From an uncultured Bryobacteraceae bacterium (lineage in GTDB: Bacteria > Acidobacteriota > Terriglobia > Bryobacterales > Bryobacteraceae): a stretch of DNA of 64,000 nt. Under the pieces are notes generated by a model. It was not told where the DNA came from and ran no database searches. It saw only the letters and a program-made list of their open reading frames with translations. The DNA lies in NCBI GenBank assembly GCA_937920635.1, contig CAKZUE010000065.1:1-64000 (forward strand), written 5' to 3'. Positions 1 through 4,899 of this stretch are shown one piece after another. How positions within the stretch are numbered: the first letter of the stretch is position 1; each line of letters opens with the position of its first letter. The translations under genes were made by a program, and so were the position numbers.

Positions 1-761
1 GCTTCTCGCACCACGTCTCGGGCATGTCCATCGACGATGCCTCGACGATCACCCTGGTGGATCGGGCCGCTTCAGTTCCATCCGGCAGCCGCGCCGCCTT
101 CCGAACCATCGCGGAGGGCGGCGCCGCCTCGACGAAAGCGCCCGCCGAGAGTGGAGTGGCCGCCTTTTTCACCCGGCATGGCGATATCTTCTACATGACA
201 ACGGATGGCGCCGTCTGGAGGGCGGGCGAACGGTCGCCAAGACTTGCGCTGATCGCGGACAAAGCAGAGTTCCAACAGCATCTGATCCTGCCTTCGGCTG
301 TCAGTTTCTTCCCGTTGCCCGGGGAGAGAGTCGGCGCCGTGGCGAAGACTTCCGCAACGTTGTACGTGGGGTCCCTTGAACGCGGAACCTCAGAGCGCGT
401 GACAATGGCTTGTCCGGAATTGGCCCGAGCGAAACAGACGTATGCTTTGATTGCCGAGCAGGCCAAGCAGCACTTGCCCGAGGCGAAGCATTTCGCCAAT
501 CCGGCACCCGCATTGGCGAGCACGGCGGACGAGGAGGGGCGCATCTACACGCTGGTGTCCCCATATTCACTCAAGACTGGCGCGACCGTCGTGCAAAGCG
601 ACACGGACGGACGCCAGGCAGCGTCGCTGCGCTTTCCGCTCACCGTCTTTCCAGATGCCAGGTTCGGCCCTTCTTTCCTCGCTGTCAGGCAGGGAACGCT
701 GTATGTGGCGGCGCCGGATGGGAAGGTTGCTGCATTCGCGCTGAGGGGGGAGACGCGATGA
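1..761 (+). CDS. Propeller-like hypothetical protein, 5' end outside window
   Basis: The frame is open from the left edge (codons in phase from base 3) to a TGA at 759-761, so the real start lies upstream; the first internal ATG is at 24. The 252 visible residues contain short strand-turn-strand units such as GDIFYMTTDGAVWRAG, ATLYVGSLERGT and GTLYVAAPDGKVAAF, which resemble blades of a beta-propeller. No catalytic motif or named family was recognised. The stop overlaps the ATG of the next gene (ATGA), so the two are translationally coupled and probably act together, perhaps as a large secreted subunit and a small Cys-rich partner. That partnership is inferred from position only. Because the N-terminus is missing, export cannot be judged. 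Confidence 0.6.
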   Translation, partial: FSHHVSGMSIDDASTITLVDRAASVPSGSRAAFRTIAEGGAASTKAPAESGVAAFFTRHGDIFYMTTDGAVWRAGERSPRLALIADKAEFQQHLILPSAVSFFPLPGERVGAVAKTSATLYVGSLERGTSERVTMACPELARAKQTYALIAEQAKQHLPEAKHFANPAPALASTADEEGRIYTLVSPYSLKTGATVVQSDTDGRQAASLRFPLTVFPDARFGPSFLAVRQGTLYVAAPDGKVAAFALRGETR

Positions 762-973
762 GGACGAAGGCGCTTCGATTTGTGGCGCTGCTGGCTTTCA
801 GCCTGCTGCCTGCTCCAAGTCTCGATCAGTTGCCAGAGTGCAGCTATGTCTTCATGTTTTGCACTACCTGCCACAGGAATCAGTGCTGGTGCTCGAGTCA
901 CAGTTACGTGGGCGCCTTTGGTGGCACCAACACGTACTACAACTGCAATACGACAACCACGGAATGTGAATGA
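758..973 (+). CDS. Small Cys-rich secreted protein ending at an in-frame TGA
   Basis: A 71-residue product starting at an ATG that overlaps the upstream stop. Residues 1 to about 22 (MRTKALRFVALLAFSLLPAP) are a basic start plus hydrophobic core, a good Sec signal peptide, so the product should reach the periplasm or outside. The short mature part has seven Cys, including C35-x2-C38, C43-W-C45, C63 and C70, suited to disulfides or metal binding. No family is recognised. The frame ends in TGA at 971-973 but continues in phase for 34 more codons with five further Cys, so this may be a truncated version of a 106-codon gene, or the TGA may be read through. GC content is visibly lower than in neighbouring genes. 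Confidence 0.55.
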   Translation: MRTKALRFVALLAFSLLPAPSLDQLPECSYVFMFCTTCHRNQCWCSSHSYVGAFGGTNTYYNCNTTTTECE

Positions 974-1078
974 TGCGGCACGACGGGACCGTGCTGGTGG
1001 ATTGACGCAACCATTCACTCCTGGTGTGGCGATTTCGGTTACCACCACACCGCCTATCTGTGTTGCGATCAGTACTGA
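974..1078 (+). other. In-frame Cys-rich continuation after the TGA at 971-973
   Basis: Read in the same phase as the 758-973 gene, these bases encode 34 residues (CGTTGPCWWIDATIHSWCGD, then 14 more with a CC pair near the end) before a second TGA at 1076-1078. The Cys and aromatic content matches the upstream part and not random GC-rich sequence, so the two segments look like one protein divided by a single TGA. The TGA could encode selenocysteine, be read as Cys or Trp by a suppressor, or be a recent nonsense mutation or base error. From sequence alone these cannot be separated. Confidence 0.45.
976..996 (+). other. Hairpin directly after the in-frame TGA
   Basis: Bases 976-982 (CGGCACG) pair with 990-996 (CGTGCTG) to give seven pairs including one G-U, closing a 7-base loop ACGGGAC. 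The stem begins two bases after the TGA. A structure here could stimulate readthrough, but the loop lies only about 9 bases from the TGA, closer than in usual bacterial SECIS elements, and hairpins are common at this GC content. Confidence 0.3.
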
Positions 1079-2436: not shown

Positions 2437-4245
2437 ATGACCGGACTCCTGCTGCTGCTGGCCTTTGCGCAGCCTCCTGCGGAACTGCGCGCGAAAATGC
2501 TCGAACTGATCGGCGGCCTGCCGGAGGTGCGCACGCCGCTCAACGCGCGCGTGACCGGCGTGCTGGAGCGGCCAGGGTATCGCGTGGAGAAACTGCTGTT
2601 CGATTCGCTGCCCGGTTTTCATGTCACGGCCAACCTGTATGTGCCCGCGGGCAGGCCCGGGCCCTTTCCGGCGGTGCTCGGCACGGCGGGCCACAGCGAG
2701 TATGGAAAGGCGGCCGCAACGTATCAGCGGGCGTGGATTTCGCTCGCGCGCCGGGGCTATGTGGTGCTCGCCTATGATCCGCCGGGACAGGGAGAGCGGA
2801 TTGAGTATTTCGACGCGGAGATGAACCGCCCGCGGCTGCGGCCGGGCGGGGTCGAAGAGCACATCATGGCCGGGCTGCAATGCCTGCTGGTGGGACATTC
2901 CATCGCCCGCTATTTCGTCTGGGACGGCATCCGCGCCTTCGATTACCTGACAACACGGCCCGAGGTGGATGCGGGGCGGATCGGCGTGGCGGGCAACTCC
3001 GGCGGAGGCACGCAGGCGGCCTATCTGGCGGTGTTCGAGCCGCGGCTGGCGGCGGCGGTCAGCTCCTGTTACATCACGCGGTGGAAGGAACTCTGGGACG
3101 GGCCCGGCCCGCAGGACGCCGAACAGGTCTGGCCCGGATTTCTGGCCGCCCGGCTCGATTTCGTCGATTTTATCCGCTCCTTTGCGCCGAAACCTTTCCT
3201 GATTTCCTCTGCAATCCGCGACTATTTCCCTATTGCGGGCGCGCGGGCCACTTATCAGGCGGCCTCGGAATACTACCGCCAGATCGATGCGCCGGGCCGG
3301 GTCGAGTTCTTCGAATACGACGACACGCACGGCTGGTCGAAGCCCCGCCGCGAAGCGATGGTGCGCTTCTTGGATCGGCACTTGCGCGGCGTGGAGGAGC
3401 CTTATCAGGAGCCGGAATCCGACACCGAGCCCGAATCCCGCCTGTGGGTGACGCCCACCGGTTATCTGGCCAACTCCATCGGCAGCGAAACGGTGTTCAC
3501 GCTGAACCGCGCCGTCGCGGCTCAGATGTATCCGCGGCGGCGGGCGTTGTCCATCCGCAATCCCGATGAACTGCGGGCGCTCGTCCGCGAGCGGCTCCGT
3601 CTGGATGCCGCTCCGCCAGCCGCGCCTGCGCGCAGCGGCGGCAAAGCAGGCATCGTAACGGCGGGTGTCCCGAAGGCGGACGCCGAGGACCTGCGGCGCG
3701 CAGGCTGGGCGGTGAAAGAGGCGGATCTGGGCGCTCTGCCCGAAGGCCGCGGCGGCTATTCCCCCGCCTATCAGGCAGCGGCGCGCGAATGGCTGTACGG
3801 GCGGAGCCTGGTCAGCCGTCATGTGGAAGCCGTGCTGCGCGCGGCTGCGGAACTCAAAAGCGATCCCGCGGCGGATCCGAAGCGCGTGTTTGTTTACGGG
3901 CGCGGCGCTGCCGGAGTGGCGGCGCTGATCGCCGCGGCTCTCGACGAGCAGGTGGCGGGAGTTGTGGTGGAGCAGACGATCACGAGCTGGTACGCAGCGA
4001 CGCAGGCCAAACTGCACGAAGGCACGGCGGAGATCGTGGTTCCCGGTGTCCTGCGCGATTTCGACCTGCCCGATCTCGTCAATCTCATCGCCCCGCGCCC
4101 CATCTGGCTCGCCGGTCCGCGCACGCCCGGCGGCGGGCGCTCCGATGCCGCCGAGTATCCGCGGGCGTGGGTGCGCGTGGTGGAGCGGGGCGAGGACTGG
4201 CCGGCTGGAAAGTGGCTAAGCTCGTTGTTCGAGACGGTGCGGTGA
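2437..4245 (+). CDS. Secreted alpha/beta-hydrolase, acetyl-xylan-esterase type
   Basis: A 602-residue exported alpha/beta hydrolase. Residues 1-12 (MTGLLLLLAFAQ) are a short signal sequence. The nucleophile elbow GNSGGG places the catalytic Ser at 188, the strand before it reads RIGVAG, and an oxyanion-type segment YDPPGQGER lies near 113; a DTHGWSKPRRE segment near 300 supplies the likely His. The first 320 residues match the acetyl-xylan esterase/dienelactone-hydrolase-like group common in Acidobacteriota and Planctomycetes, which deacylate plant polymers. The C-terminal 250 residues look like a second, degenerate hydrolase half (VFVYGRGAAGVAAL, where the nucleophile is not Ser) and may be structural. 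Substrate specificity is not determined. Confidence 0.75.
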   Translation: MTGLLLLLAFAQPPAELRAKMLELIGGLPEVRTPLNARVTGVLERPGYRVEKLLFDSLPGFHVTANLYVPAGRPGPFPAVLGTAGHSEYGKAAATYQRAWISLARRGYVVLAYDPPGQGERIEYFDAEMNRPRLRPGGVEEHIMAGLQCLLVGHSIARYFVWDGIRAFDYLTTRPEVDAGRIGVAGNSGGGTQAAYLAVFEPRLAAAVSSCYITRWKELWDGPGPQDAEQVWPGFLAARLDFVDFIRSFAPKPFLISSAIRDYFPIAGARATYQAASEYYRQIDAPGRVEFFEYDDTHGWSKPRREAMVRFLDRHLRGVEEPYQEPESDTEPESRLWVTPTGYLANSIGSETVFTLNRAVAAQMYPRRRALSIRNPDELRALVRERLRLDAAPPAAPARSGGKAGIVTAGVPKADAEDLRRAGWAVKEADLGALPEGRGGYSPAYQAAAREWLYGRSLVSRHVEAVLRAAAELKSDPAADPKRVFVYGRGAAGVAALIAAALDEQVAGVVVEQTITSWYAATQAKLHEGTAEIVVPGVLRDFDLPDLVNLIAPRPIWLAGPRTPGGGRSDAAEYPRAWVRVVERGEDWPAGKWLSSLFETVR

Positions 4246-4368: not shown

Positions 4369-4899
4369 ATGTTCATCCGTGTCCTGCCGTTGATAGCCCT
4401 GGCGCTTGGCTGCGGGATCGCTCCGGCGGTTATCATCCACAACGAAGTTGAGCCCAACGACTCCTGGGCGGCGGCGAATCTGATCGCGGCTCATTCCGGA
4501 GTTTTCTCCTTCGTCGGCTCGCGGGTCGGGAATGCTTCCGCCGACTATTTCCGGTTCCCGGTTCTCGCCGGGGATACTCTGACAGCGACGGTGTGCTGCT
4601 CCGGGGATCCGATGCTGGCACTTTTTAATCCCTCGGGATCGATGGTCGCTTACAACGACGACTGGAACGGGCTGATGCCCTATCTGTCCTACACGATTCC
4701 CGCCACCGGCATGTGGACGATTGCCGTGACGGGATTTCCTGACTTTGGCTTCAGCGGCGGCGGGAGCTCCGGGTGGACGTACACGGCCACAATAACCATG
4801 CAGCGCGCCGCTAGCTATGAGATCCCCGAGCCGGGCACATGGGGGCTGCTGGCAGCGGGGCTCACGGGCATCCTCGCCTTCCGCCGCGTTCGCCGCTGA
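4369..4899 (+). CDS. PEP-CTERM sorted surface protein with PPC-like domain
   Basis: A 176-residue exported protein. Residues 1-20 form a signal peptide. The segment NEVEPNDSWAAANLI followed by a beta-rich region (DYFRFPVLAGDTLTATV, AYNDDWNG, GMWTIAVTG) matches bacterial pre-peptidase C-terminal (PPC) domains. The C-terminus is a textbook PEP-CTERM signal: the PEP motif in EIPEPGTWG, a hydrophobic helix (LLAAGLTGILAF) and a basic tail RRVRR. Such proteins are cleaved by an exosortase and usually released with exopolysaccharide; no exosortase lies in this window. The gene is a single unit with its own promoter and strong Shine-Dalgarno site and is convergent with the VWA gene downstream. Confidence 0.85.
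   Translation: MFIRVLPLIALALGCGIAPAVIIHNEVEPNDSWAAANLIAAHSGVFSFVGSRVGNASADYFRFPVLAGDTLTATVCCSGDPMLALFNPSGSMVAYNDDWNGLMPYLSYTIPATGMWTIAVTGFPDFGFSGGGSSGWTYTATITMQRAASYEIPEPGTWGLLAAGLTGILAFRRVRR

Follow-up and report, generated by a model that had tools for sequence, protein, structure and literature searches.

A small Cys-rich gene near the beginning of the stretch of DNA analysed here (64,000 nucleotides, in the following called the window) contains an in-frame TGA behind which the coding pattern goes on. The question is whether this codon is decoded, possibly as selenocysteine (Sec), or whether it is a nonsense mutation or an error in the sequence. The window opens contig G000:C65, window position 1 being contig base 1, of a genome of 4.15 Mb in 91 contigs, and the host of the gene discussed here and of its upstream partner probably belongs to the bacterial family Bryobacteraceae.

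The Cys-rich gene and its neighbourhood

The Cys-rich ORF (758–970, forward strand) starts with an ATG at 758 and runs for 71 codons up to the TGA at 971–973. The frame continues in phase for 34 codons (974–1075) and ends at a second TGA at 1076–1078. Read without the internal stop, the secreted-type gene extends over 758–1078 and has 106 residues including the TGA. Seven Cys lie before the TGA and five behind it. The initial annotation had described exactly this arrangement, with 12 Cys in total, and both coordinates and counts were verified. The segment 758–817 encodes a probable signal peptide, as judged from the residues themselves without a predictor. The protein has no match in Pfam or NCBIfam, and the AlphaFold model of the read-through form has a mean pLDDT of 51.

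Directly upstream lies a secreted-type gene (3–761, forward strand), an ORF whose 5' part is missing at the contig start and whose stop overlaps the start codon of the Cys-rich gene (ATGA, 758–761). We call this gene propeller-like, a name taken only from sub-threshold Pfam matches (WDR3 propeller, 0.019; PQQ_2, 0.058; each in one of six members). Pfam offers no convincing match for either of the two genes.

The peptidase-like gene further downstream (2437–4242) is 86% identical to the metagenome-assembled genome (MAG) Arcobacter sp. SulCav_AS07-7_66_22 and 81% identical to the Bryobacteraceae MAG SKYG119. In the 13.7 kb of SKYG119 that were compared the neighbouring genes are present, and neither the propeller-like nor the Cys-rich gene has a match there. 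A MAG record titled Arcobacter sp. (L128) contains two pieces, about 8.7 kb altogether, with 82% DNA identity to the window; its title looks wrong. The region 4369–4899 encodes another small secreted-type protein, the end of which carries a putative PEP-CTERM-like tail.

Relatives of the Cys-rich gene

Sequence searches alone gave little. At E 0.001 no relative of the Cys-rich protein was found among 100 other genomes, and none was confirmed in a collection of genome contigs. Six peptide patterns detected no relative in viral contigs, and the propeller of the sister genome G004 and the Cys-rich protein of G194 had no match in plasmids. When the threshold was relaxed, 114 of 200 genomes from the bacterial family gave matches at E 5 or better, mostly unconvincing. 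Of 22 such loci that were read, one (L017, in genome G194) was retained as a relative aligning over the whole length, L032 proved to be part of the G156 gene mentioned below, and L041 (G021) resembles the first Cys block. The same resemblance was seen in L053 (G021) and L055 (G270), which were read apart from these 22. With both Cys-rich proteins as queries against 237 genomes, G117:C28 and G156 were added. Searches with the propeller-like gene in 61 and in 237 genomes, 26 of the latter being matched, led to the partners in G022, G117:C55, G033:C108, G168, G047, and G203.

Eight relatives could be aligned with the window protein. All of them follow a propeller-like gene of this kind, have no stop at this point, and end in a C-terminal CC motif, which in the window gene lies past the TGA, so that CC is found in nine of nine aligned sequences. 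The relatives are distant, the best identity being about 30–35%. The G194 protein (102 aa, no internal stop, encoded directly behind a propeller-like gene) aligns over its whole length across the window TGA and ends in YICCDIY as compared with YLCCDQY in the window. One other of the nine proteins matches Prok-RING_1 at 1.8e-4.

A profile was built from the eight relatives, leaving out the window protein. The 34 residues past the TGA scored 10.2 bits against it, a value reached by four of 500 shuffles of the same residues, and the full read-through protein scored 19.1 bits (HMMER bias 24, the protein being Cys-rich). The latter score was reached by one of 500 sequences when only the second half was shuffled and by none of 500 when both halves were. 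Translated in the two other frames, the DNA after the TGA gave -1.9 bits and nothing. The profile does depend in part on the window, since G194 and G117:C28 were found using the window protein; the other six members were located through the propeller-like gene in front of them. As the profile recognises the part behind the TGA only in its own frame, the first TGA interrupts the gene and the second is the stop at which it naturally ends. This bears out the view that both halves belong to a single protein, and together with the ORF and the whole-length relative it sets the extent of the gene. The final profile (A4) matched eight of 237 genomes of the bacterial family and five of 399 genomes drawn from the class, nearly all of which had served as its seeds, with an additional weak match in G294. 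Judged from sequence, the Cys-rich gene is a member of a family of small secreted-type Cys-rich proteins which, in this bacterial family, are encoded directly behind a propeller-like gene.

The codon at the position of the TGA

At the place aligned with the TGA the relatives have Trp (TGG, in G168 and in G033), Phe (TTT, G203), Leu (CTT, G022), and Thr (ACC, G047). These five residues were identical in two multiple alignments in which either Cys or Trp had been entered for the TGA. The G117:C28 protein shows a gap when Cys is entered and Ile when Trp is entered, G117:C55 shows a gap in both alignments, and G194 a gap in both but Ala in the pairwise alignment. Thus, none of the eight relatives has Cys or TGA at this place, contrary to what would be expected of a selenoprotein. 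The alignment is gappy in this stretch, and the column of the TGA is therefore likely, not certain.

Two marks of a pseudogene are found here: homologues without a stop carry a sense codon at this place, and the in-frame homology goes on past the stop. In our view the Cys-rich gene is interrupted by a nonsense mutation and is most likely a young pseudogene, a reading to which we assign a probability of roughly 0.7. The choice of stop codon is unremarkable. Eighteen of the 45 single-base routes to a stop in the frame give TGA, and TGA also ends the Cys-rich gene and five neighbouring ORFs (six of six examined), so the TGA needs no special cause. Points against the pseudogene include the following: the TGA lies in the gappy region of an alignment of distant relatives, the genome decodes UGA as Sec in another gene (SelD, see below), and the only other family member with a single lesion also has a TGA, as recoding would predict as well.

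Damage in the gene family and in the sister genome

Behind 34 propeller-like genes (35 rows, two being pieces of one gene) 13 partners of the CC type were recognised. Seven of them are open (G194, G117:C55, G033:C108, G168, G022, G047, and G203) and six are interrupted. Besides the window gene, the latter comprise G156 (TAG and a frameshift), G033:C92 (stops, start out of frame), G025 (several stops), and G119 (frameshift), the last two recognised by eye, as well as G117:C28. In the G117:C28 partner (L047:1474–1809) a TGA is situated inside the signal peptide and the frame is otherwise intact; the best SECIS-type candidate behind this TGA reached -5.9. Hence both partners with a single lesion have a TGA. 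Some of the lesions in the relatives may be assembly errors. A Cys-rich ORF behind a propeller in G033:C90 (L070), which has no CC ending, and a chimeric ORF of G004 stand outside the 13. Behind the 19 other propeller genes no partner was recognised within 600–900 bases by a Cys-density filter and by eye; for one of the 19, G239:C332, no bases were available.

The sister genome G004 holds a full gene of 350 aa that is 98% identical to the window propeller. The two genomes are 98.2% identical over window positions 1–778, the following genes 80%. From codon 8 of the Cys-rich gene onwards this close identity is lost and G004 continues with unrelated sequence, so that the Cys-rich gene is cut after codon 7 there. 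The junction is sharp and lies at the start of the Cys-rich gene, behind the nearly identical propeller. In G004 the seven codons that remain of the window gene are joined in frame to a different Cys-rich ORF of 124 aa (L010:3044–3415, minus strand). The two propellers differ by seven synonymous and six non-synonymous changes, corresponding to a dN/dS of about 0.30 from small counts. With an open propeller and a dN/dS of about 0.30, selection on the pair is not clearly absent, a point against the pseudogene; constraint may persist on the propeller but not on its Cys-rich partner.

The host genome contains a second propeller-like gene (G000:C22:15771–16667, L176), which is 92.5% identical over 2.7 kb to G033:C108 from another genus. 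No Cys-rich gene lies behind it, as the identity runs out where the propeller ends, a short distance ahead of the Cys-rich gene of G033; the adjoining ORF presumably encodes a protein resembling a sodium:solute symporter.

A single lesion with an intact frame downstream means either that the decay is recent or that the base is wrong. In the latter case the true base would give a sense codon and the gene would be whole. Such a base or assembly error would fit a lone lesion behind which everything is in frame and conserved, situated 971 bases from the start of a contig in a 91-contig assembly. Against it stand lesions of several kinds in other genomes of the family, even if some of these may be errors too, and the cut in the gene of G004. 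We consider an error unlikely, with a small but real chance of being the cause.

Possible leaky or programmed readthrough

The TGA might instead be read by ordinary near-cognate decoding, for example as Trp, which would yield a little full-length protein. Trp occurs at the aligned place in two relatives and the downstream frame is intact, as such readthrough would have it; against it, TGA is the terminator of all six ORFs mentioned above, and no tRNA with a UCA anticodon other than tRNA-Sec was seen in five genomes with a limited pattern. This pattern, TTCAA..GTTCGANTC, covers part of the tRNA variety and gave 14 matches in the five genomes, including one tRNA-Sec per genome. ARAGORN, applied to ten of the loci, called four tRNA-Sec, one tRNA-Ser (GGA), and one tRNA-Met (CAT, beside the match) and made no call at four; the remaining matches are the tRNA-Sec of the host itself, called separately, and three others. 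The initial annotation had suggested looking for UCA tRNAs; among the matches that ARAGORN called as tRNAs, tRNA-Sec was the only one with this anticodon. Readthrough of this kind appears improbable.

A general reassignment of UGA to Trp was rejected, as the Cys-rich gene and its five neighbours all end in TGA.

Selenocysteine machinery and the search for a SECIS element

The host genome contains a tRNA-Sec (75 bits) as well as SelB (348 bits), SelA (492 bits), and SelD (362 bits). The gene for SelD (G000:C17:59976–60881, L098) itself carries an in-frame TGA in five of five genomes of the genus. SelB and tRNA-Sec are above the cut-offs in 11 of 13 genomes each. Among 14 control genomes two passed for SelB, five for tRNA-Sec, two for SelD, and one for SelA, so that passing a cut-off is no proof by itself; the proof comes from the scores together with the UCA anticodon and from the TGA that SelD carries. 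For tRNA-Sec the claim is based on the high score and on ARAGORN, which calls the anticodon UCA. By its gene content, the host is predicted to make selenocysteine. With the machinery present and the TGA in SelD, Sec was a live option for the Cys-rich gene and needed testing. The initial annotation had proposed that a nonsense mutation would be marked by sense codons in homologues and by a genome devoid of Sec machinery; the former were found, whereas the complete set of SelA, SelB, SelD, and tRNA-Sec is there.

According to the passages of PMC13188914 that describe it, the model of the bacterial SECIS element has a loop of 3–9 nt with a G in the first two positions, 16–37 nt from the UGA, and an energy of -7.5 kcal/mol or better; the same passages state that some real elements fall outside the model. 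We scanned with our own coding of this model, demanding four unbroken pairs next to the loop. Behind the window TGA no candidate of -7.5 kcal/mol or better was found at the allowed positions; the two that were geometrically allowed had -6.5 and -2.7 kcal/mol. As a positive control SelD passed in all five genomes of the genus, with a GGT-loop hairpin. Of 400 TGAs sampled from the 1445 in the window, 251 passed as well. Since the model is this loose and misses some real elements, the failed scan is only moderate evidence.

The 7-bp hairpin that had been noticed two bases past the TGA exists as drawn (976–996): CGGCACG at 976–982 pairs with CGTGCTG at 990–996, seven pairs including one G-U, around the loop ACGGGAC at 983–989. 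It is not SECIS-like. Nor is it exceptional, as 47 of 200 dinucleotide shuffles of 971–1020 fold as well (z -0.70). The z values were -0.08 for 971–1030 and 0.00 for 968–1046; for 940–1040, 101 bases that begin before the TGA, z was -1.96, six of 200 shuffles being as low.

For the Cys-rich gene, Sec would mean that UGA is decoded in a C-E-U-C motif of a secreted, disulfide-rich protein, the first of a new selenoprotein family with a SECIS element of a kind that the current bacterial model does not cover. The genus does use Sec in SelD. The machinery scores, the TGA in SelD, the Cys-rich surroundings, and the open frame behind the TGA agree with this. The absence of Cys and TGA from the aligned place in all eight relatives, and of a SECIS-like hairpin at the required spacing, disagrees. 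The number of Cys is even in seven of the eight relatives (G022 has 13) and, at 12, also in the window protein without the TGA, whereas a Sec would make it odd. For calling a new selenoprotein family, PMC1088965 asks for at least two Cys homologues and two sequences bearing the same TGA; neither was found here. What stands of the Sec proposal is that the machinery is present and in use; as for this TGA, the sense codons, the lack of a SECIS-like hairpin, and the damage in the family make Sec very improbable, and the new family with it.

Least credible of all is that the product of 71 residues is what functions, the remainder being a remnant. Such a product would retain the signal peptide as well as the first block of Cys, but it would have an odd number of seven Cys and would be without the CC found in all nine aligned sequences.

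The probably nonsense-interrupted gene compared with known systems

In the favoured reading, that of a nonsense-interrupted gene, translation would halt at 971–973 and yield a product of 71 residues without the CC motif common to the eight relatives. Although the Sec machinery is there, the UGA would go undecoded for want of a SECIS-like hairpin behind it. We infer that the protein is a secreted one, that its production has ceased, and that selection on the Cys-rich gene is weak. As a side result, a pair of a propeller-like and a Cys-rich secreted-type gene emerges, the second gene of which is in many cases missing, interrupted, or truncated near its beginning.

For the search for selenoproteins the locus is a false lead: an in-frame TGA within a Cys-rich frame does not make a selenoprotein, even where the genome decodes Sec. 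The window gene shares with the SelD selenoprotein genes the in-frame TGA and a genome that contains SelA, SelB, SelD, and tRNA-Sec. They differ in what follows the TGA. In SelD of the genus the GGT loop is situated 20 nt behind it, whereas in the window the loop ACGGGAC lies at 9 nt and has no G in its first two positions. With bacterial pseudogenes that arose by a single nonsense mutation the window gene shares the in-frame stop, the conserved downstream half, and the sense codons in relatives; the difference is that the host here decodes UGA as Sec elsewhere, so that the TGA needs extra care.
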